The notes under the pieces are model-generated. The model had not been told where the DNA came from. It searched no databases and saw only the letters and a program-made list of their open reading frames with translations. Positions 7,557 to 40,593 of a stretch of 40,593 bases of DNA are shown here, piece by piece. The position numbers and the translations under genes are program-made. The stretch is from Candidatus Brocadiia bacterium (GTDB taxonomy: Bacteria > Planctomycetota > Uabimicrobiia > Uabimicrobiales > JABWCH01): contig JABWCH010000019.1 of assembly GCA_013359215.1 (NCBI GenBank), positions 1-40,593 on the forward strand, written 5' to 3'. Every line of letters starts with the position of its first letter. Within the stretch, counting starts at the first letter, position 1.

Positions 7557-7583
7557 TTTCGGGTGACATTGGAAAAAATGAAC

Positions 7584-7605
7584 ATACTGCGCACAGGCGC
7601 AGTAT
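7584..7605. terminator. Possible bidirectional terminator hairpin
   Basis: ATACTGCGC and GCGCAGTAT form a perfect 9-bp stem with a 4-base loop in the 60-bp gap between two convergent genes. There is no strong T-tract on either side, so termination is inferred from position and stem stability. Confidence 0.55.
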
Positions 7606-7616
7606 CCCATAACATC

Positions 7617-8198
7617 CTACCAAAACACAGGCTTAAATTTTTTATCATTCTTGATAACCACATCTTCGCCTGCCTGCCCCAGGACGAATAGTCCCTTTTT
7701 ATAAGCATATCGGTCTGCCTTGCCAGTTATTTCTATGCCTGCTACTGCCCCTATAAGCTTTCTGTCTTTGTATTCAGGAAAGAAGAGCTTGAATTTTTGT
7801 AGCTCCTCCAGGAATTCGTTTACATCGTCAATGCCCAGGGTGCTTTTGACCTCTATAGCGATAACGTAATCGTGGTTAATGCCTAGAATATCAATCTCCA
7901 TATCGCCATGCTCTACAGAATGCGCCTGGGCTCTCTGATAAACTCGCTCGATAGGAATGCTTCTTTCCCTAAACACTCTTGATATGCCAGGAGCGATAAT
8001 ACACTCGACAAATTTCCCCCACTTATCCTTTATGCTCTCCAGCTCACGGGTTACTCTGTCTACGTTCTTCGTAGTATTCTCTATTTGGGCATCTGTCTTT
8101 GCTTGTTTTTTGCTTAGATCGTGGAACAATGCCCACACTTCGGCTATCTGCTTATTGTTCTGCTCTACCAATGCTTCTATGGTTGATAAGGGTGTCAT
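7617..8198 (-). CDS. Coiled-coil plus PD-(D/E)XK nuclease-like protein (DUF3782-like)
   Basis: 193 residues. Residues 1-60 form a coiled coil. From about 60 a restriction-endonuclease-like fold is suggested by WGKFVE, then MEIDILG with Asp103, then AIEVKST with Glu116 and Lys118, the D..E-x-K pattern. Proteins of this design are often annotated DUF3782 or hypothetical and are of unknown function. A strong AAAGGAG site precedes the ATG. The gene is convergent with the GHKL gene, so the two are not co-transcribed. Cleavage of foreign DNA is possible but unproven. Confidence 0.7.
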   Translation of the reverse strand: MTPLSTIEALVEQNNKQIAEVWALFHDLSKKQAKTDAQIENTTKNVDRVTRELESIKDKWGKFVECIIAPGISRVFRERSIPIERVYQRAQAHSVEHGDMEIDILGINHDYVIAIEVKSTLGIDDVNEFLEELQKFKLFFPEYKDRKLIGAVAGIEITGKADRYAYKKGLFVLGQAGEDVVIKNDKKFKPVFW

Positions 8199-9353: not shown

Positions 9354-9701
9354 TCATCCCTTCACCACAATTCCGTTTGCCTGGCGGTTGTTTGTTTGCG
9401 AGATATTGATGCCTGGCATGTTTAGCTTCTTTCCTATTTCTTGTATGAACGACTCTATTGTGTCTATCCTGGATTCTATAGAATTTCCGTTTCTTCTTTC
9501 TTTTTTTCTATCGGGGAATAGCTCGTCAACTATATCTAATTCTTTCGCGAGTTTTATCAAAATATCACCAGAGGGGATTTTTTTCCCTGCCTCCCACTGA
9601 GAAACAGCGGATGCGACAACCCCAATCTTTTGTGCCAAATCTGTTTGGCTTAGGCTTTTCCTTGCCCTTCCAACTCTGATTATGTCTTTTATTTGATTCA
9701 T
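9354..9701 (-). CDS. XRE-family phage repressor (CI-like, no peptidase domain)
   Basis: 115 residues. The helix-turn-helix occupies residues about 5-60, with SQTDLAQKIGVVASAVSQWEAGKKIPS as its core in two adjoining parts: the first helix SQTDLAQKIG and the recognition helix ASAVSQWEAG. The C-terminal half is short and charged, with a possible dimerising helix (IESFIQEIGKKL). There is no S24 LexA-like domain, so RecA-stimulated self-cleavage is not expected. An AAGGGG site precedes the ATG. It is divergent from the Cro-like gene and has operators in its own promoter, so it should be autoregulated. Confidence 0.88.
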   Translation of the reverse strand: MNQIKDIIRVGRARKSLSQTDLAQKIGVVASAVSQWEAGKKIPSGDILIKLAKELDIVDELFPDRKKERRNGNSIESRIDTIESFIQEIGKKLNMPGINISQTNNRQANGIVVKG

Positions 9702-9710
9702 TGTTTGCCC

Positions 9711-9761
9711 CTTACAAAAGTTATTTTATTTTACTATTGTTAATTATAATAACTTTTTTTC
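9711..9761. promoter_or_regulatory. Operator array at the repressor promoter
   Basis: Two full TTACNNNNGTTA sites at 9712-9723 and 9731-9742, centres 19 bp apart. A half-site (TAAC) sits at the next 19-bp position, 9750-9761, inside the promoter spacer. The full sites lie at and downstream of the repressor start point, fitting negative autoregulation. The weak half-site lies where the strongest repression would act, which would let the repressor keep being made at moderate levels. Confidence 0.75.
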
Positions 9762-9770
9762 TGATAACAA
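9743..9770 (-). promoter_or_regulatory. Repressor promoter PRM
   Basis: On the minus strand TTGTTA (9770-9765) is followed by 16 bases and TATAAT (9748-9743). The transcript would begin about 35 bases before the repressor start codon and could continue into the genes at 9328 and 9015. The -35 is weaker than those of PL and PR. Confidence 0.6.
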
Positions 9771-9784
9771 AAGAAAAAATATTC

Positions 9785-9813
9785 TTGACATTTTAACTTT
9801 AGTAATATAATAT
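9785..9813 (+). promoter_or_regulatory. Rightward early promoter PR
   Basis: TTGACA (9785-9790), a 17-bp spacer and TAATAT (9808-9813). It matches PL element for element, including an operator beginning 3 bases after the -35 hexamer and a second operator sharing the last T of the -10. It drives the Cro-like gene and the replication operon. Confidence 0.85.
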
Positions 9814-9843
9814 TACTTTTGTAACAAAAAATAACGAAAGAAA
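9794..9843. promoter_or_regulatory. Operator array OR
   Basis: Sites at 9794-9805 (the reverse complement of the middle OL site) and 9813-9824 (a fully palindromic TTACTTTTGTAA), centres 19 bp apart. A half-site follows at the next 19-bp step, 9832-9843. Occupancy of the first two would block RNA polymerase at PR. Confidence 0.8.
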
Positions 9844-9875
9844 AAAACAATTTGAAAGAAAGGTAGACAAGACGA

Positions 9876-10091
9876 ATGGAAAAAGAAAAAGAATGCGAAT
9901 TAAAAAAACTTGGCAAAGAAATAAAGCTTGCGAGAATAGCAAATGATTTAGATCAAAAAGAGCTTGGAGACAAGATAGGATATTCGGCTGCTGCTGTTTC
10001 TCATTGGGAGGCGGGGAAAAGAATTCCTTCTTATTTCGCAATAAAAAAAATAGAAGAAACTTTTAAAATAAAGCTTGGAGAAAAAAAATGA
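9876..10091 (+). CDS. Cro-like XRE regulator
   Basis: 71 residues, essentially one helix-turn-helix domain. Its recognition segment AAAVSHWEAGKRIPS is almost the same as that of the divergent repressor (ASAVSQWEAGKKIPS), which implies they bind the same operators. It is the first gene of the PR transcript. Its stop codon overlaps the start of the 1469-residue replication protein (ATGA). Expected role: shut off PRM and tune PL and PR during lytic growth. Confidence 0.88.
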   Translation: MEKEKECELKKLGKEIKLARIANDLDQKELGDKIGYSAAAVSHWEAGKRIPSYFAIKKIEETFKIKLGEKK

Positions 10092-13000
10092 ACCAAATCA
10101 AATACATTTCGATTAGCGACCTTAAGCCTCATCCATTAAACGCAAGCATATACAGCGATGGTTGCGATCAAGAATTGCTGGACGATATTAAAGAAAGAGG
10201 CATCAGGTCGCCCATTGAGGCAACTAAATCTCTCTTGATTGTTTCTGGGCATCGCAGATTTAATGCGGCTCAGATGCTAAAGCTTTCTGAGGTGCCAGTC
10301 ATTTTCTCCGATGTGGACGAAAATGATGAGCTGGCTGTTGAAGAGGCGTTGATCAAAGCGAATATACAGCGTCAAAAAACAGCCGAACAGGTAGCAAGAG
10401 AATATGCCAGGCTAAAGGAAATCGAAAAAGAAAAGGCTAGAAGAAGGATGTTGGAGGCTGGAAAGAGCAATTCTGGCTTAAAAAGCTTAAATGGCCCTAC
10501 GGTAAATTTACCGCAGGGTATCGAAACAGGAGAATCTCGCGAAATCGCTGCCAAAAAATTAGGCATATCCGCAAGCAACGCCGAGCGTTCAGCCAAAGTA
10601 ATAGCCCAAATAGACACCCTAAAACAACAAGGCCAGATCGAGAAGGCTGAACAGTTGCGAAAAACCCTAAACGAAAAATCGGTAAACGCGGCCTGGCAGC
10701 AAATCAAGCCAAAGAATGAAGAGCAAGAGCCAGAAAAGCCCGAAGAAAAAAAGAGGGAGGAGTCCCCTCGTCCGTTAAAGTGTCTATGCCCTGACTGGTA
10801 TATGGAAAATGTACCAGCACACATAAAAGAGTTTTTTATCAACCCCATTCTAAAAAAAAGATATTGGATCGAGGCTCAAACAGCGAGAAAAGAATTTCCA
10901 ATACCTGGAATAGAATGGAAAGACCTCGAAAAATTCTACGGAAATGTAGAAGCTGCAAGATTTTTCGAGGTAAAATATTGTTCAGGAAAAGCAGGAATCC
11001 CCGAAACGTGCTATTATTCCCCAGACATAAACCAAACAAAAACCTATCTTTCGGCGAAAATAAAAGAATCAAAATTGAGAAAGGTAATCGTTGAAAAAAA
11101 CGAAACAGGCCGTCATCCTTTTTGGGGGGAAGATGAAAAGCCTGAAAGCGTAAACGCCAATGCTGACAGCGAAGAAGAATTGCTCCTTTCTTATATGCAA
11201 CAGGTAGCAACAATAAAAAAAGATGAGGAAGGGCCAGAATCCCAGGAATCCATAGACACCCTTCGTGACGCAAAGCTTAAATCCTGCCAGGAGGAAAACA
11301 AGGCACTAAGGGAGCAGGCAAAGCGCGATCATGACGATTACGAAAAATTTTGTGAAGAATTCAACGCTCTCGCAAAGAAACTAAAACAATACCAAGACGA
11401 AAACATAACCCTGGACAAAAGATGTGCCACGCTAGAAGAGGAGAAAAAAGCCCTTGAAGTAAAAATTCTCGAACTTGTAAAAGAAAGCGAGACAGGAAAA
11501 GCCGAACCAGTTTTTTCTCCTATTCCTCCGCTGGTATACAAGAAGGTATGCGAAGAAAACACAAAACTGAAAGACCAGATTGCCAGCATGAAAAAGAAAT
11601 ATCCCCAGGAAGGATATAACCAGGCAACAATGGATGAAATTATCGCTGTTAAAAATGAAAATGAAAAGCTACAAGAAGAGAACGCAAGGCTCAAAGCAGA
11701 GATGCCAGCCCCTGCGGTATCGCAAGAAAGCGAAACAATCAAAAAATTAGAATTCGACAACATGGTATTGAAACGCCAGGTAGAAGACTTGACACTAAAG
11801 TGCGAAGAGCAAAGAATAACGATGTCCGAAGTGATGGAAAGAAATGTAGAGCTAAACGAAAAGGAGGAGATAGCCGTGCTATTCATGGAATTTTTATCAT
11901 TATTCCAGGGTGTAAAAAAAGGCAATGATGGCAATTTTTCTGCAATTTGCCCTGCGCATGAAGACAAAACACAGTCTCTGTCTGCAAAGGAAGAGGACGG
12001 GAAGATCATTTTGAACTGTTTTGCGGGCTGTACCTGTAAGCAAATTTGCCAGGCAATAGGAATAAAAGAAAGTGATCTTTTTGACCAAAAACAAGATTTT
12101 AGCGAGGGGCTTACGGTTGCATCTCTGGCAACTGATAAAAAAATTCCAGAAGAATTTTTAAGGGCTATCGGGCTGGTTGATATGGATAGAGAAAGGGTTT
12201 ATTCCTCTTTTGGAAAAATAGGAATGGGCGGGGCAAGCAGTGCTGTTCATATTCCTTATTGGGACATAAGGGGAAATCCTTCCAAAAGGCAGCGCATCCG
12301 CTATGACAAAAAGGCAAAAGACGGATCCAAATGGAGCTTTAGCGATGCTGCAATAGATGCCTATGGGGAATGGTATATTGCTGGCTATTCCCCTGATATA
12401 CTTATAATCGTAGAAGGCGAAAGCGACTGCTGGACGCTTTGGTATCATGGATACCAGGCGATAGGCATTCCTGGTGCCACTATGAAAAATTGCGTCAAAG
12501 AAGATGTGAAAAAATTCAAGAGAATATACCTTTCTTACGAGAAAGACAAGGCTGGCAAAAAATTCGTGCAGGATATTTCCAAAAAGCTTTCTGATATTGG
12601 GTATTCGGGAGAAATTTTTTTCTTTAAAATGCCAGAGGGGGCGAAAGACCCAAATGACCTTCATAAGATCAGCAAGGACTTCAGGGCAGATTTCCAAAGA
12701 ATTTTAGAGGCAGCAATGCCATCCAAGGAAATCGAAAAAGAAAAAGAGGCAAAAAAACCAGAGGAAATCCAGGAAGAAAATGAAGTCGAGGAAAGCGAGA
12801 TCGAGACGGGGGAGGTGGAAAGAGAAATTTTTTCAGACACAAACCCGCTCATTTCTTTTTTGATAGCAGAAAGGGGTATTTTCAGAAAAGAGACCATTCG
12901 CAAAAGAAAGAAAACTTTCGAAGAAATCAGACTTGTATGCGCAGACAAGGTTAAGATTACGAAGAGGCTAACGGATATTTTTGGAGAAGAAGCCTTTGTC

Positions 13001-26034: not shown

Positions 26035-29000
26035 ATGACAATTAATGCTACAGCGGTTCTTTCTGCGGACATAGACAGCACTCAAATATTAAAAAAAGTA
26101 GCCGAGATAAATCAAAAATTATACTCTATTGCCACAACCAAAATTGCGCCTATTTTTGATTTTGTTGACGCGCAAAAATCAATAGATGTTGTTTTTGACA
26201 AATTAAAAAGCATTGCTGATATGGTCATAAAGCCTCGTGTAGACGCTCAGGCTATAGAAAATATAAGCAGCAATACAAAGGTTGTTTCTGCCTTCGAGGC
26301 ACAATTTAAGGGTGTTCTTGAAAAGGCATCCAATCTTTCTAAAGATATAAATGGTATTTTTTTATCGCTGGAAAGCACAGTTGCCAGTGGCGCGAAGGGG
26401 TATAAGACAAAGGGCTTAATGAAAGAAATGGATGCACTGTCTGGAGCAACAAGAGAAGCCAGGCGGGGCATTATTTCTGCCTTCGACGATATTGTAAAAA
26501 AAGCAAATGAGATAAAAGGCGTTGCGCCTGAAACAATCCAGGCAGCAAACGCAATATTCACAGGTGTGAAAGAAAGTCTTGGCAATACAGGCGGGGGAAA
26601 AGTGGCATTTAAAAGTTTTTTTGGGAAAGTGCCTGTTGATATTTTGCGAAATGCCATGAACGAATATAAAAGCACAATAAACAATATGTTTAAGGAGCTA
26701 TCTGGCGGAAACGATGCAAGCCAGGCAATCAATAGCATTTCTCTTGTGGGCAATCTTTCTAGGGCAGTAGACGCGGCCCAGGCCATTATCAAGCCAATCG
26801 AAATACCAATTGCAAAAACAGGATTCAATGTTTCTTCTGTTTCTTCTTCTCTTGTGCGAGGCATTACTTATGCAGTTGCCTCTGCAAAGTCCGCTTTTGG
26901 TGCGCTTGCTGCTGCCATTCCTGTTGGGGCCGTTACGGCTGGCCTTGATGCAATTTCTTTAAAGGTTGGCACTTGGGCAAAGGTTGATTTTCCTGCCGCA
27001 TTGGAATTGGGGCAAACAGCAAGGGCTATATCTTCAGAAGCAGAGGCGGCGTTTTCAAAAGAGGCAACAGGAAGAAAAATCTTTAATGCTCTTTTTTCTT
27101 CCAACAAAGTTAGTGGACTTGTCGGTTATCATGTTGGTCTATATACTAATGCGATTGTCGGTGGCCTACAAATATTAACAGATTCTATTTTAAAAATTCC
27201 ACAAGGCACTTTGGGTTTATTGGGAAAAATAACGGATGATACCACAAGTGCTTCAATTTTAAAAATAAAAAGCTCTATAGGAATAATAATTACGCCTATA
27301 AGGGCGGCTTTCGCTGGATTTTTTACAATCGTTAGCAAGATTATAAACAAATACACTTTTTCTGTTTTGACAAGTGTTTTTGTTGCAAGCAACATGTTGT
27401 TTATGAAAATTGGGCAAAAGATTGCACAGGGAATTAATGCGCTTTCCAAAAAGATTTCTTCCCTTTTTAAATCTATTATGGGCGGCTTTTTTAAAAATTT
27501 TGGTCTTGGTGGTGGCGGCGGTGGCGCATTGGGAGAGCTATCAGGATTTCAAATTTTTTCTGTTGCAGCGATTGGCGCATCAACCAAAATGGCTGCAAAT
27601 TTAGAAGAGGCAATGCTGAGAGTAACAACAATCACACTGCAAACAGGTGCTGCATTAAAAAATGTAACGGCCCAAGTCGTGGGACTATCTAATGAATTTG
27701 GAAAATCGGCTACCGATGTTTCTTCTAGTCTTTATGATATTTCTTCGGCAGGCTTTCAGGGCGCGGATGCCCTGGCGATTCTAAGAGCATCTATTCAAGC
27801 AGCATCTGCTGGCATGACAAGTACGTCTGTTTCATCAACTGCCATTTCTAGGGCATTACGAGCATTTAATTTGCCAGTCGAGAGCGCGACAACAGTTTCT
27901 GATGTTCTTTTTAATGTGGTCAAGCGCGGAATCACAACCTTTGATGGCTTGGCGCAACAAATTACAAGAGTCTTGACCGTTTCGAACGTATCGGGTGTTT
28001 CTTTGCAGGAGCTTGGTGCTGTTTTGGCCTTCCTTACAAGGAATGGGTTACAAACAGAACAAGCAATTTTAGGCGTGCAAGGTTTGTTGAAATCTCTTAT
28101 TTCACCAGCAGAAGAAGCAAAAGAGGCCGCAAAACAAATCGGGTTAGCTTGGGATGAGACAACCTTGAAACAAAAGGGATTTATAAAGCTTTTGCAGGAA
28201 TCAGCACCCAAAATTTTGGCAAATAAAGATGTATTCAAAAAGCTTGTCGGGGAAATGCAAGGCGTAACGGCAGCACTGAGTATTGCATCAAAGCCTTTTG
28301 AGCTAACAGAAGATCTTGCGGCAATGAATGAAAGAGGCGCAGCAGCAGAAGCAGCAGCCCAAGTTGCGCTTGGATTTAATTATCAAATGGAAAAATTTTG
28401 GACAAACTTCGTAAATATACTTCGGAATATTGGCCAAGTTGTCTTGCCTTATGTTCAACCACTTTTAGAGATGTCCACAGAAATGATTGCCAAGCTGGCA
28501 GAGTTCGCCAATAAAGACTTTAGCGGTTTTTGGGCAGGAATAAAGGCACAGATTGGAATGGTTTCATCATCATTATTGCAAATGATTGGTGAAACATCGC
28601 GCTATATAGGCGAAGAGCTTGTATCCGTAGGAGCAAAAATTTTACCCTACGTCACTGGATTAACGAATGCCCTTGGTGGATTATTATATTCTGTCGTGGT
28701 TGATGTTGGGCCCAAAATTTTTACTTTTTTAATAAAACAATTTTGGATGCGATTGCAATGGCTATGGGCACTTATAAAATTTTCAATCAGGTCCATAGAT
28801 GCGATTTTGCAAAATGAATTAGGCGCGGTGTATTCAAGCATAAAACATTTCTTGGTTGTTTTGGCTGCTCCATTCATAGGAATTTATAAGGTTGTTGCTG
28901 CTGCTGGAAGGGCCGTATCTTATTTGATAAGCCTGATACCAGGCTTTGGCGGCGATGATGAACAAAAGGTAGAAAAGCCTCCTGCACTGGCAGAAGCTCA

Positions 29001-30246
29001 AAGAGATTACACTAAATGGATAAAAGATTTTCAGACAGATTTCAATAAAGGCTTTGAGTCATTTAAATTTGATTTCAAAAAAAATGATAAATTGGCCGAT
29101 GATGTTTCAAAATCTTTTGAAAGTTTTAATGGAACAATCGCCAAGGCTGCAACAAATATTTTAAATACGTCTTCACAGGCATTACAAGATCAGGCTGAAA
29201 GCATGAATCAGGTTTTGCTTTCATTAGAGGCTCAGTACAAAAAAGAGGTGGCTGCTGGGCAAAAGGAACGCGCGGAAATAACACTAAAATTTATAGAAAA
29301 ACAAAAGACTCAAATTGGCAAGCTGGCAGACGATTTACAAAATTCAGAGCTAGGAGATGCCCTCAAAAAGCAGCAAGAATTATATCTGGCTTTAGCCAGG
29401 GCCAGGCGCGATGGGGAAAAAATATTACAGATTTCTCTTATAGAGAGCATAAAAGATAATGAGCTTTTCATTATGAAAATGGAAGCAGCAGCAAGAAACA
29501 AGGCCGTTCAGGCAAATCAGCAAGTTGTAAATCAGCAAGTAAATATGTTTGATCTTTTGAAAAACAAATCGCTTGAATTAATAAAGGCAGGAGAGAAGCT
29601 TGGAAGCGGCCTAGGGAACTTAAATCAGGTTCTTGATGATGTGTTTGGAAAGAATGTTGAGCGAATAGCGAAGCAATACGGTGTTGGGCAAGATATTGCA
29701 GATTCTCGTGAGCTTGCAAGAGATGTGATCGAAGCGCGAGCCGCAGGATTTGCTGTAAATGATATAAATACAATAGTAACGCGTGGGCTAATGCAACGTT
29801 CAAGCGCACTAACAAGCGTTCTTACAGCTTTCAAGAAATACCAAAGATCTTTATCAATTGAAGACGTAACAAAATTGGGGCTTTCGGGGGAAATCATAAG
29901 GTTGCTAGATCAAGCAGAGGCACTAGGGCTGGATGCAATAGGCAGAAAAGCATTACTTCAAAGTTCCTTAACAGAAGAAGCCTTTAAATTTTTAGATCAA
30001 CAGCTTTCAGGCGACAAGACAGTAAAATTTGTAGAGATGGCAAATAAACATTTTGAAGGTATTTCAGAGGAAAGAAGATTACAAGAAAGATTCAATGAGG
30101 CCCAGCTAAAAGTGGCAGATTTGACAAAGACTGCCGTTACGAGAAATCAAAAGCTTAAAGTATTGGTTGACGAGCTAGAAAAAAAGGTTGCAGAGCTTGA
30201 GCAGCTACAGAATCAGCAAGGCGCAATCATGGCGCAAAACCCATAA
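26035..30246 (+). CDS. Tail tape measure protein (TP901 type)
   Basis: 1403 residues. Determines tail length and is ejected with DNA. An N-terminal helical region of 500 residues contains a poly-Gly spot near 490. The TP901-type core occupies about 520-740, including LEEAMLRVTTITLQTG, GKSATDVSSSLYDISSAGF and QEIGAVLAF-like LQELGAVLAFLTRNGL. Several hydrophobic segments lie between about 860 and 970 (LLYSVVVDVGPKIFTFLI and others), then long coiled coils to the C-terminus. Start with AGGAGA. At roughly 1.5 Å per residue it predicts a tail near 200 nm; that ratio is a general rule, not measured here. Confidence 0.92.
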   Translation: MTINATAVLSADIDSTQILKKVAEINQKLYSIATTKIAPIFDFVDAQKSIDVVFDKLKSIADMVIKPRVDAQAIENISSNTKVVSAFEAQFKGVLEKASNLSKDINGIFLSLESTVASGAKGYKTKGLMKEMDALSGATREARRGIISAFDDIVKKANEIKGVAPETIQAANAIFTGVKESLGNTGGGKVAFKSFFGKVPVDILRNAMNEYKSTINNMFKELSGGNDASQAINSISLVGNLSRAVDAAQAIIKPIEIPIAKTGFNVSSVSSSLVRGITYAVASAKSAFGALAAAIPVGAVTAGLDAISLKVGTWAKVDFPAALELGQTARAISSEAEAAFSKEATGRKIFNALFSSNKVSGLVGYHVGLYTNAIVGGLQILTDSILKIPQGTLGLLGKITDDTTSASILKIKSSIGIIITPIRAAFAGFFTIVSKIINKYTFSVLTSVFVASNMLFMKIGQKIAQGINALSKKISSLFKSIMGGFFKNFGLGGGGGGALGELSGFQIFSVAAIGASTKMAANLEEAMLRVTTITLQTGAALKNVTAQVVGLSNEFGKSATDVSSSLYDISSAGFQGADALAILRASIQAASAGMTSTSVSSTAISRALRAFNLPVESATTVSDVLFNVVKRGITTFDGLAQQITRVLTVSNVSGVSLQELGAVLAFLTRNGLQTEQAILGVQGLLKSLISPAEEAKEAAKQIGLAWDETTLKQKGFIKLLQESAPKILANKDVFKKLVGEMQGVTAALSIASKPFELTEDLAAMNERGAAAEAAAQVALGFNYQMEKFWTNFVNILRNIGQVVLPYVQPLLEMSTEMIAKLAEFANKDFSGFWAGIKAQIGMVSSSLLQMIGETSRYIGEELVSVGAKILPYVTGLTNALGGLLYSVVVDVGPKIFTFLIKQFWMRLQWLWALIKFSIRSIDAILQNELGAVYSSIKHFLVVLAAPFIGIYKVVAAAGRAVSYLISLIPGFGGDDEQKVEKPPALAEAQRDYTKWIKDFQTDFNKGFESFKFDFKKNDKLADDVSKSFESFNGTIAKAATNILNTSSQALQDQAESMNQVLLSLEAQYKKEVAAGQKERAEITLKFIEKQKTQIGKLADDLQNSELGDALKKQQELYLALARARRDGEKILQISLIESIKDNELFIMKMEAAARNKAVQANQQVVNQQVNMFDLLKNKSLELIKAGEKLGSGLGNLNQVLDDVFGKNVERIAKQYGVGQDIADSRELARDVIEARAAGFAVNDINTIVTRGLMQRSSALTSVLTAFKKYQRSLSIEDVTKLGLSGEIIRLLDQAEALGLDAIGRKALLQSSLTEEAFKFLDQQLSGDKTVKFVEMANKHFEGISEERRLQERFNEAQLKVADLTKTAVTRNQKLKVLVDELEKKVAELEQLQNQQGAIMAQNP

Positions 30247-30579: not shown

Positions 30580-32721
30580 GTGTTAGTAAAAATACAAGGG
30601 AAGGATGGAATAGTAAAGAAAATAACTAAGCCAATCATGGCGGGCGGGGCTTCTACTTGTTCTTTTGAAAGCATCGATGATTTGGCACTGGGAACTTTTG
30701 TAACAGCTAAGGAAGAATCAACTACCCGCTTTGAGGGCTATGTTATAAGTAAAAAACGCAGCAGAGACAAGAACAAAGCTATAATGCGAAGCTACGAAGC
30801 TATTTGCAGGGCCTTTTATGAGTATTCCCAACAAGATATAACAGTTACAGGAGTGGGGGACAAAGACGATGAGTTTTCTGGAAATGGCGTGGAATATCAA
30901 AATTGGCTAATAAGAGAAAATCCAAATAAGCATGTAATTTGGCCTCCTACAGGAGCAGAATTTGAAATATATGATGATACAAGCGAGCCTGTTGCAATGC
31001 CTGAAAATATCGTTTCCATTGGGGAAATAGAAGAAAACAAGTTGCCTTCTCATGTAAAAATCGAAGTGAGAAAATATAGGGAAAAACGCTTTCCCGTTGT
31101 CCCTGATTTTGATTTTTCCATCAAGCCAACCATGGAACAAATCAAAAAAGATCCATCCTTTGCGAAGTATGGCAGGGTTTTCAAGATCATGCAGATAGAA
31201 GACAAAACAAAGGAATACACAGAAAAAATTTTAGAAAATCCCTCTGTGGGGGGGTGTAAATTTTTCATCAAAGGACACCCGCAGGCAAATGCAAACACTC
31301 CTGAAAGAGACAATTTTAGCCTGTCAGCGTCAATCAATCAAAAGAAAGATAAAAAGACGCTTATTAAAAAGGGGGGTAACGGCGGGAACAATATTCCAGG
31401 CACAGAAACCGAAAAGAAAAATAGATGCCATGTTGACATGCACTTCGCGCATGGAATTCTTTTGCCGCGCGTTACTGGGGATTGGGGGCCAGAACCAAAA
31501 CAGCAAGAATGTTGGGTTCGGGCAAGGTATCTTGAAGAAATAAAGCCTTTCAGCGTTGAAGTTGGAGGAATTGCTGCGTGCCAACGGCTGTCAGCTATAA
31601 ACCATATAGAAATTGAAGTATCCTATGATGTTTTTGACCAAAAATATAGAGACATGACCTATGGCGGGGCTGAAGGAATGCTAGATCCAACCAAAGATGA
31701 GGGTAACGGTGTCTGGTCTCATGATCTTTCAGGAACGTACATAGATGAGGAAGGTGAAAGCAGAGCGACAGGGCTTTTAGAAAAAGCTCTTTTGCATTAT
31801 GATACATTGCGATTTGCTACAGATATAACGCTTGCTGGAAATAATTTTAGCAATATTAAAAAGGTTTCCCTTGAAGGAAAAACAATTCTTTTTGATTCTA
31901 TAGAATGGTCTTTTGGCCTACAACCATCTGAGAATAGAACACAATATAAAGGGGTTAGGCTTATTTCGGGCTTTTCTAAAAATCTCCTAGAAAAAAACAG
32001 ACTATTGCAAAGGCAAGAGGAACAAAGGAATTTAAAGAAAAATAAGGATAAAGCTATTGAATTTAAAGACCCAATAAATCAAATTGAATCTGTTAAAATT
32101 TACGCAAAAATCTTATGGGATTACAATATAGAAGATCTTTCTATATGTGAATTCTGCGAAAAACAAGCTGATGATTCATGGATTGGGACTTCAAAATTAG
32201 GCTGGATAGATCAAATAGCTTGTAGGGGATGTAGGGCTGACACCCTTGGGGATAATGCGATTTTTGAGGTCGAGAGAATTAAAAAAGATACTACAAGAAA
32301 TGGTGTTACAAGGGATTTATATAAGGCTGTTCGGGTTGTATATGATAGAGGCCAAAGAGTGGGTTTTTTTAAATTAGTGCAAAAATTAGCCTTTAATCAT
32401 TTGCTTGTAAAACCATTGGTTTCTGAGGATGTAGAAAAAAATCCTTGGGAAAATTTGCCTGATAATATAATAAAAACAGGAATTTCCAATGGCCAAGCGT
32501 CTATAGCTACAGAAAATATAATGATTGTAGAGGTCCCCAATGAATGGAATGTTTATGGAGATGGTAATTTTTTTTATACGAGAAAAACCCCTATAAAGGT
32601 TTCTTTCCCCTGGCAAGGCGTGCCAATTGAACCATGTCTGGAAAATAGTGCTACAAAATTATGGGCAAGCAATAGAAAAATAAGCGCGGCAAGCATTGCA
32701 ACTTATACGAGGGCCTATTAA
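30580..32721 (+). CDS. Large tail-tip/baseplate protein, function unresolved
   Basis: 713 residues, start codon GTG at 30580 with AAGGAAGG upstream. The N-terminal 170 residues look like a beta-rich domain (VKIQGKDGIVKKITKPI, GTFVTAKEESTTRFEGYVI) comparable in position to distal tail or gp27-like hub proteins. The centre holds many polar loops. Residues about 520-555 contain two Cys pairs (CEFC and CRGC), possibly a metal site. It precedes the paired tip genes. No named family. Confidence 0.65.
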   Translation: MLVKIQGKDGIVKKITKPIMAGGASTCSFESIDDLALGTFVTAKEESTTRFEGYVISKKRSRDKNKAIMRSYEAICRAFYEYSQQDITVTGVGDKDDEFSGNGVEYQNWLIRENPNKHVIWPPTGAEFEIYDDTSEPVAMPENIVSIGEIEENKLPSHVKIEVRKYREKRFPVVPDFDFSIKPTMEQIKKDPSFAKYGRVFKIMQIEDKTKEYTEKILENPSVGGCKFFIKGHPQANANTPERDNFSLSASINQKKDKKTLIKKGGNGGNNIPGTETEKKNRCHVDMHFAHGILLPRVTGDWGPEPKQQECWVRARYLEEIKPFSVEVGGIAACQRLSAINHIEIEVSYDVFDQKYRDMTYGGAEGMLDPTKDEGNGVWSHDLSGTYIDEEGESRATGLLEKALLHYDTLRFATDITLAGNNFSNIKKVSLEGKTILFDSIEWSFGLQPSENRTQYKGVRLISGFSKNLLEKNRLLQRQEEQRNLKKNKDKAIEFKDPINQIESVKIYAKILWDYNIEDLSICEFCEKQADDSWIGTSKLGWIDQIACRGCRADTLGDNAIFEVERIKKDTTRNGVTRDLYKAVRVVYDRGQRVGFFKLVQKLAFNHLLVKPLVSEDVEKNPWENLPDNIIKTGISNGQASIATENIMIVEVPNEWNVYGDGNFFYTRKTPIKVSFPWQGVPIEPCLENSATKLWASNRKISAASIATYTRAY

Positions 32722-33473
32722 TGTCTGAGCTAGAAAATATTTTCACCAAGGGAACGCAGGCATTGCAGCTTGACGATACCCTTGTTTTTGTGCCCATGAA
32801 TGAAGATTATTGTTTTGTGGCGGTTGTTATTTCTTATGATGAAGCCTACGGAAAAATTCTTTGCAGAAAAATTTTTGATACAGAAGCAACCAAGACGTTT
32901 TACGTTCGTGCCCTCTATTTTGGCCAACAAGGCACTCCTAGCACATCAGAAATTGAAATAGGACAAAATATACTAGTTCACCGCGTCGGTGATGGGAACA
33001 ATAGCTTTGCCGCTCTTTCTGAAACGCCACAATTGCACGATATAGAAAATAGCACTAATTTTTCTTTTGTATCTTTTTTTTTTCGCAGCTTAATTGATTT
33101 CCCCATAAGCGCCTTTCTGTCGGGGAATTTAGAAGGCTCTCAAGATGTTTTAAAAGTTGCCTGTGCTAGAAAATTAACAAATGGAGAAACCTGGAAAAGC
33201 ACCAATTTACAGCTTACCAGAACATTTGAGATAATATCGAATACGAACAAAGATATAAAGATATTAACTTCTGATGCAAGGCAAATAATAAGGCTTTCTA
33301 GCCTTTCTTTGGGTGTCTATAAAAATCTGAATGATTCTTGCGAAGGCACAGTAAGCGAAACTAATTTTTTTTATAGAGCTTCTCTTTTGGCCTGCAAAAT
33401 TGACGGTGTTGACGCTTTGGCTTGTGTTGATTTCTCTAATTTATCAATAGATATTGACTGTTGCGGGGAATAA
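32721..33473 (+). CDS. Tail-tip protein, short member of a tandem pair
   Basis: 250 residues. The first thirteen residues (MSELENIFTKGTQ) match those of the next protein except for one position. Further similarity continues through the NEDY-FVA segment and a DIE-TK-type strand. It ends with DCCGE, close to the CC of the paralogue near residue 224. Start overlaps the previous stop by one base. Likely a trimeric or ring tip component; function is inferred from position. Confidence 0.65.
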   Translation: MSELENIFTKGTQALQLDDTLVFVPMNEDYCFVAVVISYDEAYGKILCRKIFDTEATKTFYVRALYFGQQGTPSTSEIEIGQNILVHRVGDGNNSFAALSETPQLHDIENSTNFSFVSFFFRSLIDFPISAFLSGNLEGSQDVLKVACARKLTNGETWKSTNLQLTRTFEIISNTNKDIKILTSDARQIIRLSSLSLGVYKNLNDSCEGTVSETNFFYRASLLACKIDGVDALACVDFSNLSIDIDCCGE

Positions 33474-34844
33474 ATGAGCGAACTGGAAAACGTATTCACA
33501 AAGGGAACACAAGGTTTTATTCCTTCTGAAAATCTTGTCTTAAAACCTTTAAACGAAGATTATAAATTTGTGGCAAAAATTAAATCTGTTTCTCCACTAA
33601 CAATCAATAAAATATGGGATATTGAGAAGACACAAGATTTTTCTGCAAGCATAAAACATTTTGACGGAACAAATATAAATAACGATGAATTGCAAGAAAA
33701 TCAATTGATTCATATATCAAGAATACCAGATAATCAATTTTTAGGATTAATGAAAAATACAAGCTCTTTTTCTGGCATTGGTGCTTATGTTTATTCTCTT
33801 GGGGAAGCTTTTGAAAAAACAGAATACACAGGATTTTTTTATTGTGGCGTATATAGCAAGATATGGAGAAAGACAAATTTAAAGTTTATAACTTATTATA
33901 AACTTATAAAAAATGAATCAAATAGGATTTCTATTGTATCAGAGGCAGAAACAGCAATATTTATTGATAACTCTTTAGACATAATAGCATCTAGGGGCGT
34001 TGTTTCTGGGTGCTCTGGTGGAGAAATAGGAAAGGCGTACTCAGTAAGCATGCTCCCTGCAATCTGGGAGCATGACGGAATTAAGGAAAATTGCTATTGT
34101 ATTATAAATCAATCGGTATTGGCAGTAGGATATATTTGTTGTTCGCAGGAACCAGAAGAACCAACTTCATGTCACGATGGCATAGTTATAACGCAAACAG
34201 GCCTTTCTTGGGATGTTATGCATGATACAGCATGGTTGTACATGCATAACAATAATGTTTGGCCTAATGGGCGATGGAGCAGACCGCGCAGCTTTTCTTG
34301 GTGGATAGAATCGACATTGCCAGAAGGGGAATCTTGGGTTTACCCGCCTTTGCTTGTCGGCAATGAGCCAATAGCATCAAGAACCAGGATAGGCCGCGTT
34401 AATTGCTTTCGCGCTATAAAAAATAAATCTTTTTATAATGCGGCCTGGGGACAAAACCTAAGCGATGAAGAATATAACACTTTTTACGCCCAATATTTTC
34501 CTAGTGGCCTTGGTGGCTTTAAGGTGGCTATCCAGCTTGTTTCTTGCTTGCGATGGAATGGCTCTTGGATATGGCCTATATATTGGACGCTATATTTCGA
34601 ACAGACATCGCAAAACTTTGCTGGAAGCCAAAATATAGACTATATCGGCTATATCGGGACATACGCGTATGCATCTATTTTTAGGAGTCATTATTATGAT
34701 CCTATATATCAGGTGGAAGAACCCGCGTTATGGGCTCAATTAGAGGCTGACGCACAGGAAATACTAGAAATGATTGGAAACTCTTTAACGGTAACAGATG
34801 CAGCATGTTTTGAATCTGCATCAGGCGTATATTTTGCAATATAG
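33474..34844 (+). CDS. Tail-tip/adhesin protein, long member of the tandem pair
   Basis: 456 residues. Residues 1 to about 225 are a paralogue of the preceding protein. The remaining 230 residues are an additional Trp- and Tyr-rich domain (WLYMHNNNVWPNGRWS, SFSWWIEST, WNGSWIWPIYW), of the type seen in receptor-binding proteins. The start follows the previous stop directly. The architecture suggests duplication followed by gain of a binding domain. Carbohydrate binding is an inference from aromatic content. Confidence 0.65.
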   Translation: MSELENVFTKGTQGFIPSENLVLKPLNEDYKFVAKIKSVSPLTINKIWDIEKTQDFSASIKHFDGTNINNDELQENQLIHISRIPDNQFLGLMKNTSSFSGIGAYVYSLGEAFEKTEYTGFFYCGVYSKIWRKTNLKFITYYKLIKNESNRISIVSEAETAIFIDNSLDIIASRGVVSGCSGGEIGKAYSVSMLPAIWEHDGIKENCYCIINQSVLAVGYICCSQEPEEPTSCHDGIVITQTGLSWDVMHDTAWLYMHNNNVWPNGRWSRPRSFSWWIESTLPEGESWVYPPLLVGNEPIASRTRIGRVNCFRAIKNKSFYNAAWGQNLSDEEYNTFYAQYFPSGLGGFKVAIQLVSCLRWNGSWIWPIYWTLYFEQTSQNFAGSQNIDYIGYIGTYAYASIFRSHYYDPIYQVEEPALWAQLEADAQEILEMIGNSLTVTDAACFESASGVYFAI

Positions 34845-35152: not shown

Positions 35153-35794
35153 ATGCGTGTGAATTCGTGCGAGAAAAGAATTAAGGCATTAAAGAAGCAA
35201 ATGCCCTGGCTCAAAGTAGATCGAAAAAAAGAAGATGAATGGGAAATCGCCTGTGAAAAGCAGGAATGTAAGAAAGAAATTGAAAAAATTTTAGGAGATT
35301 TACCCTTGGAAAATCAAGCGATGCAAACAAAAGCGGCGCAGATAATGCCTGATGTCGTAGACCCTATTGCGCGGCCCATATCTGATATCTCAAGTGCGTT
35401 CAATAGCCTATCACAAATTGTTTTGATGCAGGCTAATGAAAAAATAGAAGCCTTGCGGCAAGAAGTAAATGGCGTAAAGCAAAAGAACGAAGAGGTTACG
35501 GCGAAACACATAGAAAAGTTGCAAGAAATATGTGACACGCTCACAAAGCAAGTAAACACGGCCACCACGAAACAGGTAGAAAGGCTAGATGATATATGCA
35601 ATACGCTATCCAGTCAATTTAGCTCTTCCATGAGCGGATATGAAGAGAAATTGCTCGATCTATCGCGCATGATTGACGAAATGCAGCGTGATAAAGAAAT
35701 AGAACTTGTTTCAGAAAAAGAAAAAATTGACAAGAAAATAGAAGAGCTTAAAAAGAAGCAAGAAAAAAATATCAATTTTCCTACTAAAGAATAG
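35153..35794 (+). CDS. Coiled-coil protein, first gene of the kinase cassette
   Basis: 213 residues. A Cys-containing N-terminal 60 residues (Cys at 5, 34 and 39) are followed by a long coiled coil from about 75 to the end. Two similar segments, IEKLQEICDTLTKQV and VERLDDICNTLSSQF, form an internal repeat 24 residues apart. No signal peptide or membrane segment. AAGGAGG, the best ribosome site in the region, precedes it. It may be a fibre-associated coiled coil or the partner of the membrane protein encoded next. Confidence 0.65.
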   Translation: MRVNSCEKRIKALKKQMPWLKVDRKKEDEWEIACEKQECKKEIEKILGDLPLENQAMQTKAAQIMPDVVDPIARPISDISSAFNSLSQIVLMQANEKIEALRQEVNGVKQKNEEVTAKHIEKLQEICDTLTKQVNTATTKQVERLDDICNTLSSQFSSSMSGYEEKLLDLSRMIDEMQRDKEIELVSEKEKIDKKIEELKKKQEKNINFPTKE

Positions 35795-35805
35795 GAGATT
35801 GAGAA

Positions 35806-36648
35806 ATGGAAGCTATTGAATGTAAATATGTTATAACTCCTAAAGACATTCTTTTGAAAGAGCAAGAATCAGTGCAATTGGGAGTAAAGAAAATCAATCC
35901 TGATGGCACGCTTGAAGCTGTTAGAAATCTTAAGTTTTTTGAGTACTCAGGAGCAGGTTTTATTGATGAATATGGACAGCTTACAGCATTGCGCGCTGGA
36001 GAGCATCAATTCTCTGTTTTGTTTGAAAACGAAGTCCAAGATGAAATTCAGATAGATGGAAAATATACGGTGCTACCTGCAAATGGTCCGTCCCTGTCAA
36101 AGATGGCTGATGGTGTCCTGGAAAAAACGGCGAAAGAAGAATCATCTGAGCGCAATCCGTACGATTCAAAAATCCAAAAGGCAACAATAAAAAGGGTTAC
36201 CATTGATGAATTGAGGGCAAAAACAGAAGAGAAGAAAGTGAGTAAGGGTCTTATGGCGCACACAAGGGCGATCACTCGCACGATTGGAGCGAATAAAGAT
36301 TTAGTATGGTTGGGCTTTATTCTGATCTTTGCTGTTGTCTTTGGATGCTCTGTAGTGCTTCTAATGTATGGGTTCTCAATTGAAAAAATTGGTGCATTCT
36401 TGACCATGCTAGGCGGGCTGGTCATTTCATTTTTTGGGAAGATATATTCCCCCCCTGGCGAGGTTTCCCAAGAAATTGAGGAAAAAATGCTAGGGACAAA
36501 TGACAATGAACGCCTCGCTGCTCTCATGAAAAAGAAAGAATCCTTGGATTTTAGAATTAGGGGATTGACTACAAAAATAAGGGCTTCGGACACAGGGGAA
36601 AAACAACAGTCAAAAACGTTTTACAAGATGACGATGGATGAAAGGTAA
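35806..36648 (+). CDS. Membrane protein with a BIG2-like domain and two transmembrane helices
   Basis: 280 residues. Residues about 5-90 resemble a bacterial Ig-like (BIG2) domain, with GFIDEYGQLTALRAGEHQFSV as the characteristic strand pair (split at about 51-71). A charged linker follows. Two hydrophobic helices (about 166-190 and 194-214) form a hairpin, leaving both ends on one side, and a charged helical tail completes the protein. No signal peptide. It lies between a coiled-coil gene and a kinase gene, 11 and 33 bases from them, suggesting one transcription unit and possibly one complex. Confidence 0.7.
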   Translation: MEAIECKYVITPKDILLKEQESVQLGVKKINPDGTLEAVRNLKFFEYSGAGFIDEYGQLTALRAGEHQFSVLFENEVQDEIQIDGKYTVLPANGPSLSKMADGVLEKTAKEESSERNPYDSKIQKATIKRVTIDELRAKTEEKKVSKGLMAHTRAITRTIGANKDLVWLGFILIFAVVFGCSVVLLMYGFSIEKIGAFLTMLGGLVISFFGKIYSPPGEVSQEIEEKMLGTNDNERLAALMKKKESLDFRIRGLTTKIRASDTGEKQQSKTFYKMTMDER

Positions 36649-36681
36649 TAAAATCAAGGTTTTCAGGAAAGAGGTTGAAAA

Positions 36682-38040
36682 ATGGCAAAAGAAAAAATAG
36701 CAAAGGAATCTCTGAAAACCTTGTTACATCGGGTTTGCGGGTATAGCAACGCAAAGGGTTCTTGCCCTATTTCGCTCATTCAGGAGATATTATCTTTTTT
36801 CCCAGAAAAAATAGGTCTTCATCTTTCAGAAAGACAGCTTACGACAGGGTATAATGGCTTGGCTGGCATTGGCGGCCAGGGAATAGTAATTTGTTGCCAT
36901 GACATAGGCAACAAAAAAGTAGCACTAAAAATCGTTAGGCCAGTGCTTCAGCAGGCTTATCGCATATCTGAAAACATGCGGGACTACACGCCCAGTCTTA
37001 TTATTCCTGACCATAGATTTATTGAATCCGCTAAGCTTCAATATTCCGTAGAAGAAGAGGCCGTAAAAGAAATTAGAACTTTTGTAATTCCGCGCGTTTA
37101 TTTCGTAGAAGAAGCGCCAATCCCATATATGCTCATGGCATGGGTTGATGGGCTTAGCGCGTTAGCAACTATAAATTCTCAGAATGATTTTATATATTCG
37201 CTTGAATCCTTTAAAAAGGTTTTAGATGCTGCAATATTTTTGCATTCCTACAATCTCGTTTACCGAGATTTTAAGCATGCAAATTTAATGATTACGGATG
37301 AAGAAAAGATAGGTCTATTGGATTTTGGACTAGCGAAAGAAATAGACTCAAGGAATCTAACAATGACAGGCACGGCGTTAGGAACAATGCCCTATGCCTC
37401 CATAGACATGATGAGAGGAGCAGAGCGCGCAGACCAAAGCAGCGATATTCACGCGCTTGGCTTCGTGTTTTGGGAATTCGTGACCATGTCGGAATGCCCA
37501 GATTATGAGGGAGTGGCAACAAAGGCTGACGATAGAGAAAAATACAGATTTAAAATCGCAAGGAAATTGCCTGATTACTGCAAAAAAATATTTTTCGATG
37601 CAACGTCTAACGATGATTCCAGGAGATTCCCAACCGCAGAGGACTTTAAAAACGCGGTTGAGAATCTCATCAATAGGGCAAGGTCCGAGTCTAAAAGACA
37701 AAATTTTATAGCTACAGAAATCAGCCAAGGCAATTTGGCCGTTCCTGAGCCACCCAGGCCGCTCGCTCCACCGCCAAAGGCAAAAGAGCCTGGAAAGAAA
37801 TTCAAAGGGCTTACAAGCAAGTTTTTGCCTGCATCCTTTGAGCCTGCGACTGAGCCTGCTGCAGCAAAAGAAACAGATAGCGAAATTTTCAAGAGGGCAA
37901 TTGCCGAGAAGAAAAAAGCGATTGGAGCATTTAATTGTTCAAAAGTTTGCGCTTTCCCTGGTGGCTGTAATGGCTCAGGAATGTGCAAAAAACTTCTCAT
38001 TGCACAAATAGATACATTTGAAGACATTTTTTTAAATTAA
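36682..38040 (+). CDS. Hanks-type Ser/Thr protein kinase
   Basis: 452 residues. Kinase motifs in order: glycine loop GIGGQGIV (62-69), VALK with Lys83, a variant HRD loop VYRDFKHANLM (Asp196, Lys198, Asn201), DFG at 214-216, GTMPYASID (234-242) in place of GT..YMAPE, and DIHALG (255-260). All catalytic residues are present, so activity is expected. A Pro-rich linker (about 354-395) leads to a four-Cys tail at 419, 423, 429 and 435, probably metal-binding. No membrane segment. Phage kinases are known, for example the Stk of 933W used against other phages and T7 gp0.7, but this architecture is not one I recognise. It lies inside the late region next to a membrane protein and a lipoprotein. Confidence 0.9.
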   Translation: MAKEKIAKESLKTLLHRVCGYSNAKGSCPISLIQEILSFFPEKIGLHLSERQLTTGYNGLAGIGGQGIVICCHDIGNKKVALKIVRPVLQQAYRISENMRDYTPSLIIPDHRFIESAKLQYSVEEEAVKEIRTFVIPRVYFVEEAPIPYMLMAWVDGLSALATINSQNDFIYSLESFKKVLDAAIFLHSYNLVYRDFKHANLMITDEEKIGLLDFGLAKEIDSRNLTMTGTALGTMPYASIDMMRGAERADQSSDIHALGFVFWEFVTMSECPDYEGVATKADDREKYRFKIARKLPDYCKKIFFDATSNDDSRRFPTAEDFKNAVENLINRARSESKRQNFIATEISQGNLAVPEPPRPLAPPPKAKEPGKKFKGLTSKFLPASFEPATEPAAAKETDSEIFKRAIAEKKKAIGAFNCSKVCAFPGGCNGSGMCKKLLIAQIDTFEDIFLN

Positions 38041-38062
38041 TAAATATTTTAAGGATTTATAT

Positions 38063-38371
38063 ATGAGAAATATTATATTTTTGGCTTTTTTGGTATTATG
38101 CCTTTCTGTGATTTCTTGCACTGGAAAGCATTGCCTAAAGGTTGGGGGAAATTACGAAGGCGTAAACGCTGATCTAGAATATTGCTTTGACGCTGGCAGT
38201 ACCAGCGCGATAGGCTCTCCTGTTGTGGTCGATAATTCAGGAATGAAATATATAGGAATATCCGAAAAAGAAGTAGCTGAAATTATGAAAGAAGATACAG
38301 AAGTAATGGACACAAAGCAACCACAGCCCACAGGGGTTCAAAAAAAACTAGTTCTATTCCTGAAGAAATAG
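38063..38371 (+). CDS. Small lipoprotein
   Basis: 102 residues. A signal peptide (MRNII, then hydrophobic 5-18) ends in a lipobox V-I-S-Cys19, so it should be lipid-anchored outside the inner membrane. The mature part is polar, with two further Cys early on. AAGGA precedes the start and the gene follows the kinase by 22 bases. Candidates are superinfection-exclusion lipoprotein or spanin-like lysis protein; it lacks an obvious Rz-type partner. Confidence 0.75.
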   Translation: MRNIIFLAFLVLCLSVISCTGKHCLKVGGNYEGVNADLEYCFDAGSTSAIGSPVVVDNSGMKYIGISEKEVAEIMKEDTEVMDTKQPQPTGVQKKLVLFLKK

Positions 38372-38383
38372 GTAGGTGAAACG

Positions 38384-39595
38384 ATGAAAATAATAAGCGG
38401 AATTACTAGAGCCGTGCTTGATTCGTATGCAACAATTGCATCGCTAGCAAGCTACGCGACACAAGCCTGGACAACCTCATTTGTGCAGACCACAATAGCT
38501 GATACGTTTGTGGCCTTCAACCTGAAGGACAATGTCCAGTACATAGTAAACTACAAACAAGCTACTATTCCAGATGGTACAGAGGCCTTAGATGGTGAAC
38601 TGTGCTTGGTCACTGGGGAAGCACCCGCCATCTATCAGTTTACCACATCCTGGGCCAAGTTGGCAGATCTTGAAGAGGACGATAGAGTAGTCTTCTTTGA
38701 GGATGGTGCTGACGAGACAGAAACAGGATTTGAGGCTACCTTGAAGATTTACACTTGGGAGCTAGGAGAACTGAATGAGTACCCCTTAGCAACAAATGAC
38801 ATCTTCTATAGTGACAGGGATAACGAGCAATTTAGGTTCAACGGAACTACCTGCGTTAGCTATCCTACTCCAGCCACAAACCTTTTGAGTAACGTACAAA
38901 AGGGAGCTATAGATGCTGCTGACTTCCAAGAAGGGGACGTTGTAGCCAAGACTTCCGACCTGGGAAGCATAGAAGTACAAAATAAGAGGCTATTCAAAGA
39001 AAGCATTACTGTTGGTGCTGGTTTGGTTTCTTTGCCTAATCCTGGTTCTGGCAATACTTGGAAAATAAAGAGCCTCAAGATTGTCTCTACGGTAGCATCT
39101 GGCGATACTATTTTTAATCTTAAGATCACAGATGGTTCTACCGCTAAATATCTTTGTTATCTATCTACCATACAATTGGGGGATACAATAGGACTGGATA
39201 ATTTCATAAGCTTGCCAACAGGTTGGTTTCTCCAAATTCAATGCACGCAAGGTTCTCTTGATGTAATAGGGGTTGGGCAAGATGGAGCAACGGACACAGT
39301 GCTTGCTATGGGTTCAAAAGCAGTAGAGGATTATGTCGCAATATCTGCTCCTGCCAGCGGAAAGAGATGGTCATATAAATTATGCACGTGTCCTACAGGA
39401 GCAGGAAATTCTGTGGTATCGGGGAAGAACAACGGTGGTTCGTATACCGTTCAACTTTTAAATTCTTGTGCGCTAAAGGTTGGAGAAACGTTACTTTTTG
39501 AAGACTGTGTTCTTGAAAACCCTGAGACATTAGATTTGAAAGCAGTTGGGTATGGATTTGACTATGTTCTATTTGGTGTGGAAGGAGATATATAA
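38384..39595 (+). CDS. Tail fibre-like protein with two repeated C-terminal modules
   Basis: 403 residues. The N-terminal segment (SYATIASLASYATQAW) resembles fibre shaft starts. Two C-terminal modules of about 80 residues each begin with SGNTWKIKSLKI or SGKRWSYKLCTC and end with LDVIGVGQDG or DYVLFGVEGD, indicating an internal duplication. Codon usage in the N-terminal part is less AT-biased than neighbouring genes, consistent with fibre exchange. Probable host-recognition component. Confidence 0.65.
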   Translation: MKIISGITRAVLDSYATIASLASYATQAWTTSFVQTTIADTFVAFNLKDNVQYIVNYKQATIPDGTEALDGELCLVTGEAPAIYQFTTSWAKLADLEEDDRVVFFEDGADETETGFEATLKIYTWELGELNEYPLATNDIFYSDRDNEQFRFNGTTCVSYPTPATNLLSNVQKGAIDAADFQEGDVVAKTSDLGSIEVQNKRLFKESITVGAGLVSLPNPGSGNTWKIKSLKIVSTVASGDTIFNLKITDGSTAKYLCYLSTIQLGDTIGLDNFISLPTGWFLQIQCTQGSLDVIGVGQDGATDTVLAMGSKAVEDYVAISAPASGKRWSYKLCTCPTGAGNSVVSGKNNGGSYTVQLLNSCALKVGETLLFEDCVLENPETLDLKAVGYGFDYVLFGVEGDI

Positions 39596-40257
39596 TGCTA
39601 GTGCCTACGATAGCAAATAGGATAATAACAAAGGATTGCAAGATCTATGGCAGATCTTCTCTGGCATGGTTAGATCTCAGATTTGATGGTTCAAATTTAA
39701 GTACAGTAATAGAAAACACAGGAGAAGCCCTAATATCGGCGCAGACAGTTTCTGCCCAGAAAATTATTCAGACTGATTCAAAATATGGCCTTGGCTGCTG
39801 GGATTGTGGCAGTAATGCTGAATATTCTACGCTTACAATACCCAATTGTTTCAAGCCTTCATTCGGAAATTTCAAGATTGAGTTTTGGTTCAAGATCCCG
39901 ACCAGGACGACAGGAGCGGCTAGAAGCCTATTAAGATTTCAGTATAAAAAATCAAACGTGGACAAATTGATTCATATCTATATGGAGTATTTTTCAGGAC
40001 ATAAATTATCAATAAACATTCCTGATACTGCGATTACGTATGGTATTCCAGATTGGGACGTAAATAGGTGGTACAAGTTCACTATGATCTATGCTTCTAC
40101 GCTAGAGGTTCTAATAGACGATGTCTCTTTGAGAACATCGAACACGATACCAGATGCTACTGAGGTCGCAGAAACAACTACATTTAGATTTGGGCCCGGG
40201 GAAGCGGCGGCGGGCAGGCAATTTTATATTGATAATTTCAAGATTATCAAAATATAA
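39595..40257 (+). CDS. Concanavalin/LamG-like domain virion protein
   Basis: 220 residues. The pattern YGLGCWDCGSNAEYSTL, GNFKIEFWFKIP, HKLSINIP, WDVNRWYKFTMIY and VLIDDVS is typical of a LamG/concanavalin A-like jelly roll, as found in carbohydrate-binding tail proteins. Its start shares a base with the preceding stop (TAATG). It is the last gene of the late region and is followed by a strong terminator. Confidence 0.75.
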   Translation: MLVPTIANRIITKDCKIYGRSSLAWLDLRFDGSNLSTVIENTGEALISAQTVSAQKIIQTDSKYGLGCWDCGSNAEYSTLTIPNCFKPSFGNFKIEFWFKIPTRTTGAARSLLRFQYKKSNVDKLIHIYMEYFSGHKLSINIPDTAITYGIPDWDVNRWYKFTMIYASTLEVLIDDVSLRTSNTIPDATEVAETTTFRFGPGEAAAGRQFYIDNFKIIKI

Positions 40258-40424: not shown

Positions 40425-40593
40425 TTATTTATGTTTGAAAATTTTTTGATTCACCTTTAGTCTTATTCCTGGAAGATTTGATATATTCTTCTTTCGGGGT
40501 ATCAACAGAAGAACGCTCGCACCATCAATGCAGGGCGTTTTTTGCGTTTCCAGGCATAAAGTCCTCAAGTAGGCCACAACGGAATAATCCTCT
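40425..40593 (-). CDS. Large serine recombinase, 3' end (same gene as at 1-1469)
   Basis: The frame from 1-1469 continues here: bases 40495-40593 repeat 1-99, and 40425-40494 add the final residues, ending at a TAA at 40425-40427. The last residues are basic and Lys-rich (ending IFKHK). Together the two segments give 512 residues. It proves that the window ends join. Confidence 0.9.
   Translation of the reverse strand, partial: EDYSVVAYLRTLCLETQKTPCIDGASVLLLIPRKKNISNLPGIRLKVNQKIFKHK
40495..40593. repeat. Terminal overlap, right copy
   Basis: Exact second copy of bases 1-99. Removing one copy leaves a 40,494-bp circle in which the integrase gene is intact. Confidence 0.95.

Follow-up and report, generated by a model that had tools for sequence, protein, structure and literature searches.

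What are four closely spaced genes, one of them encoding a serine/threonine protein kinase, doing among the tail genes of a phage from a planctomycete, and do the four work together? The window (the whole stretch of DNA analyzed, 40,593 bp) is one whole contig of a 6.39-Mb assembly in 576 contigs. Its two ends are identical over 99 bp (1-99 and 40495-40593) and the reading frame of the serine integrase (3-1490) recurs at the right end, so the contig most likely represents an entire phage genome, circular and ~40,494 bp long. From the serine integrase, the phage is probably temperate. The standard head genes are present (terminase, portal, capsid-protease fusion and cement protein), and the capsid-protease fusion shares 33% identity with its counterparts in Rhodobacter phage RcMamaDuck and related phages. 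The four genes and the landmarks around them are as follows.

9354-10091: two repressor-like HTH genes, far from the kinase
26035-30246, + strand: tail tape measure protein (PF10145, 4e-26; phrog_991, 6e-41), on the same strand and in the same gene run as the cassette
35153-35794, + strand: helical protein, 213 aa (ORF)
35806-36648, + strand: membrane protein, 280 aa (ORF)
36682-38040, + strand: Hanks-type Ser/Thr protein kinase, 452 aa (ORF and Pkinase match)
38063-38371, + strand: predicted lipoprotein, 102 aa (ORF and lipobox)
38384-39595, + strand: late gene downstream of the cassette, 403 aa, fibre-like by position
39595-40257, + strand: concanavalin/laminin-G-like lectin, 220 aa, probable tail adhesin (PF13385, E=3.9e-4, below the curated cut-off)

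As the initial annotation had described, the four genes are tightly packed (gaps of 11-33 bp) among tail genes, with the tape measure gene upstream and the lectin-like gene downstream. They sit in one unbroken run of tail genes, the late operon, and the cassette region has no excess of promoter-like sites. A purine-rich, plausible ribosome-binding site precedes each of the four ATG codons. Scored by codon log-odds trained on other phage genes, the four ORFs are positive only in the frame given above, and the shifted frames come out strongly negative. Antisense ORFs across the region were rejected, as they score below the sense frames. The codon use of the kinase (+0.025) and of the membrane protein (+0.023) is phage-like and not host-like (mean of sampled host genes -0.037, sd 0.019), so these two genes have probably been long resident in the phage. 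The helical protein and the lipoprotein are intermediate between phage and host. The earlier view that the genes do not match structural roles also held, in that the three non-kinase proteins have no structural PHROG, Pfam or NCBIfam match.

Elsewhere in the tail region, no overlapping frame for a frameshifted tail chaperone was found before the tape measure gene, and no phage relatives were found for the 403-aa downstream protein. The adjacent tail genes at 32721-33473 and 33474-34844 encode proteins whose N-termini are paralogous (26% identity, each starting with MSELEN.FTKGTQ), which suggests the duplication of a tail-tip or fibre gene.

The kinase matches the Pkinase family with E=4.7e-19 and 69.2 bits, against a curated cut-off of 31.7, over a domain at residues ~60-335. 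In an alignment with eight other kinases, K83, E124, D196, K198, N201, D214FG and R315 are all in place. By family score and by the full set of catalytic residues, the protein is a divergent Hanks-type kinase, and because these residues are conserved it is apparently active. Its best matches among solved structures are bacterial PknB-type kinases. The catalytic residues are those of PrkC/PknB-like kinases, but the window kinase differs from these enzymes by a 24-residue insertion that precedes helix C, by SID in place of the APE motif, and by a Pro-rich linker followed by a C-terminal tail with four cysteines (Cys 419, 423, 429 and 435). It also differs in having no predicted membrane helix and no PASTA repeats, and identity to this group is about 30% at most. 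The complete catalytic set, the linker and the four-Cys tail had been noted from the start, and all are seen in the alignment and the sequence. Searches with the four-Cys tail returned chance-level matches only. In a quick tree of 80 kinases, the kinase has a very long branch (2.81) and no supported grouping, and it falls outside the well-supported clades of paired kinases.

The 280-aa membrane protein is composed of a BIG2-like domain (~5-92), a linker, a two-helix hairpin (169-213) and a charged C-terminal tail. The two hydrophobic helices of the initial annotation are predicted at ~169-187 and 195-213. The BIG2-like assignment stands in part: aligned with one host Big_2 domain (L108) it scores 72, beyond the maximum of 56 in 2000 shuffles, but the Pfam Big_2 HMM (PF02368) has no match in the protein, and the score of 36 against a second host Big_2 domain (L109) is reached by 56 of 2000 shuffles. 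Beta-trefoil matches of this part in the PDB were judged to be chance, as they trace back to a single stretch of 28 residues that recurs within designed proteins. The protein has no signal peptide, a stretch of net charge +3 before helix 1, and an inter-helix loop of only ~5 residues; because of these three features, we infer that the cytoplasm is the most likely location of both the BIG2-like domain and the C-terminus (N-in/C-in). In another genome of the phylum, a two-helix protein that by eye is DUF2335-like lies near a tail-like gene (L026:4536-5075), and its hairpin bears a weak resemblance to the one in the window membrane protein. DUF2335 was rejected for the membrane protein, as the hairpin match is weak and the family search found nothing in the assembly of the window.

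The 213-aa helical protein has a Cys-containing N-terminal part followed by a long amphipathic helix or coiled coil, with no predicted membrane segment. Its hydrophobic periodicity of 3.65, above that of all 1000 shuffles, is better fitted by an 11-residue repeat than by a heptad. Two weak matches were obtained, to Apolipoprotein (1.5e-4, below the cut-off) and to the ZorA coiled coil. The 102-aa protein carries a hydrophobic signal helix (3-21) and a lipobox, VISC, at residues 16-19. It is thus a predicted bacterial lipoprotein, in agreement with the initial annotation.

Next to the set as a whole, the initial annotation had placed the remark that no such system was described. None was found in our comparison with protein families, defence models and the literature. 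Searches of IMG/VR, GenBank phages and GTDB contigs gave no relative of the membrane protein, and 392 genomes from the phylum gave marginal matches at most; for the helical protein, GenBank phages likewise yielded no relative. None of 63 IMG/VR kinase loci has cassette-like neighbours (the kinase ORF was recovered at 58). Their recurrent layouts are pairs of kinases of ~354 and 353 aa, or a kinase of 250-260 aa followed by a protein of 234-263 aa; a single locus (L091) has a two-helix protein after the kinase, with no similarity to the window membrane protein. In 80 phages with related capsid genes, no relative of the cassette was detectable in the DNA covered, which extends no more than 10 kb beyond the capsid gene and so often stops short of the cassette position, 12.6 kb downstream of the capsid gene in the window. 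The four genes were therefore never seen together elsewhere in the data searched, which the initial annotation would have held against a system. However, the tail genes of the window phage that were tested are likewise without relatives, so the absence of the set says little. Apparent phage relatives of the kinase in GenBank were set aside: those opened were unannotated, unverified contigs. For instance, the kinases of "Listeria phage LM" (OR846xxx-OR848xxx) match a PASTA kinase of the Listeria chromosome, at the same identity and over the same range of the query, and these contigs are probably chromosomal DNA of the Listeria host.

The host has a large kinase repertoire. Its assembly holds at least 148 kinase matches (150 candidates scored), and sampled host DNA has 40% G+C, like the phage. 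Another planctomycete, 'Ca. Uabimicrobium amorphum', is kinase-rich with 525 kinases (PMC11032199).

We tentatively favour the reading that the cassette is an accessory (moron-like) kinase module that a temperate tailed phage carries in its late operon, with a membrane partner that faces the cytoplasm. The kinase would be made late, together with the tail proteins, and would phosphorylate host proteins, and possibly phage ones too, at the inner membrane. The two-helix protein may hold its BIG2-like domain at the cytoplasmic side of that membrane as an anchor or adaptor, and the helical protein may be a membrane-surface or scaffold partner. The Pro-rich linker and the four-Cys tail could serve in partner binding, and the lipoprotein would act on its own in the envelope. 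The phage would probably benefit by re-tuning the signalling of its host, which has a very large kinome, at a late stage of infection. Intact genes, conserved catalytic residues, a membrane hairpin, a lipobox and a late-operon position can all be read from the DNA itself, and the module reading draws on most of them: the catalytic residues are kept, the other three proteins lack a structural family role, and the genes share one strand, short gaps, their own ribosome sites and coding statistics. The phage-like codon use of the kinase and membrane protein, the many kinases of the host, and the long, ungrouped branch of the kinase point the same way. Against it, no second copy of the set was found in our searches, the late-operon position would suit a virion or lysis role equally well, and the intermediate codon use of the helical protein and lipoprotein could mark them as unrelated neighbours.

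Nearly equal in standing to the module, and itself doubtful, is the possibility that there is no module: the four would be unrelated genes, accessory or tail, that have collected towards the end of the late operon and each work alone. The end of the late operon is a usual site for acquired genes. The lack of co-occurrence elsewhere, the differences in codon use among the members and the orphan status of the adjoining tail genes all agree with this. The tight spacing on a common strand and the phage-like codon use of both kinase and membrane protein speak against it, but weakly, as these traits are common to other genes of the operon.

A role in prophage defence, with the kinase aborting the infections of competing phages, we consider unlikely. 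The phage is probably temperate, and prophage kinases in such a role are known (PMC3564112, PMC3681748, PMC11341870): Stk of phage 933W, a eukaryotic-like kinase of a temperate phage, aborts HK97 infection (PMC3564112, PMC3681748), and KKP, a module of two kinases (CSD and FHA) and a PP2C phosphatase, acts against lytic phages (PMC11341870). The window kinase resembles Stk in being carried by a temperate phage. However, 933W stk is cotranscribed with cI (PMC3564112), whereas the window kinase lies in the late operon with genes for a membrane protein and a lipoprotein and far from the repressor-like genes, and on gene position only it was rejected as a kinase of the Stk type. The superinfection blocking suggested by the initial annotation is unsupported in its 933W-like form, because it would need expression in the lysogen, yet these are late-operon genes with no promoter-like excess. 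With KKP the window shares a prophage-borne Hanks kinase that would act on host proteins, but it differs in having one kinase with no CSD or FHA match; a PP2C search of the whole assembly gave no match in the window contig and a kinase search gave a single kinase there, on which ground KKP identity was rejected. The match of the kinase to the PADLOC PD-T4-6 model (7e-31, 106 bits) is non-specific and its label uninformative, because these models give ordinary kinases much higher scores (~280-480 bits). The 102-aa protein is, like the superinfection-exclusion lipoprotein Ltp of TP-J34 (PMC3952083), a small phage-encoded lipoprotein, but it matches no family and has a late-operon position.

Slightly less likely again is the stronger form of the module reading, in which all four proteins make up a membrane-tethered signalling complex, a late kinase with its anchor, scaffold and envelope lipoprotein, that redirects a kinome-reliant host. 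The envelope sensing that the initial annotation had added to such a system is weakened, because the membrane protein lacks a signal peptide and its BIG2-like domain is probably cytoplasmic, and because no membrane segment is predicted in the kinase.

We consider it improbable that the four are virion components or injected proteins, with tail parts and a particle-borne kinase delivered at entry. Phage virion proteins often carry BIG2-like domains and the genes lie between tail genes, but it is unusual for a virion protein to have a hydrophobic hairpin or a lipoprotein signal, and no structural PHROG was matched. Least probable of all is a lysis cassette with the two-helix protein as a holin-like pore and the lipoprotein as an outer-membrane spanin: no endolysin or holin was recognized among the genes scanned across the window (Pfam, PHROG) and RcMamaDuck, which shares the capsid-protease fusion, has its holin and endolysin after the tail genes, but the cassette includes no endolysin and no inner-membrane spanin partner, no protein scanned has a lysis PHROG or Pfam match, and the 165-residue N-terminal extension and the kinase are foreign to lysis cassettes.

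The kinase thus belongs to a familiar kind of enzyme, here in an unusual setting and beside genes for which no relatives were found. Most phage kinases described so far are defence or lysogeny switches expressed from the prophage, or early takeover enzymes. If the module reading is true, a kinase timed with the tail genes and accompanied by membrane components would be a case of a phage using the signalling language of its host late in infection, and the kinases of that host number about 150 or more.

Two further regions of the phage genome deserve mention. An AT-rich gene (33% GC) at 5508-7556 encodes a 682-aa protein that by eye resembles a GHKL/Hsp90-type ATPase with a nuclease-like C-terminus, and beside it lies a gene for a 193-aa protein with nuclease-like motifs (7617-8198). 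The 682-aa protein has no informative family match and PADLOC reported nothing for the two genes, which are possibly a defence pair (5508-8198). At 10088-14497, a single gene encodes a 1469-aa fusion of a ParB-like N-terminal domain, a coiled coil, a primase/Toprim part and a DUF927 helicase.
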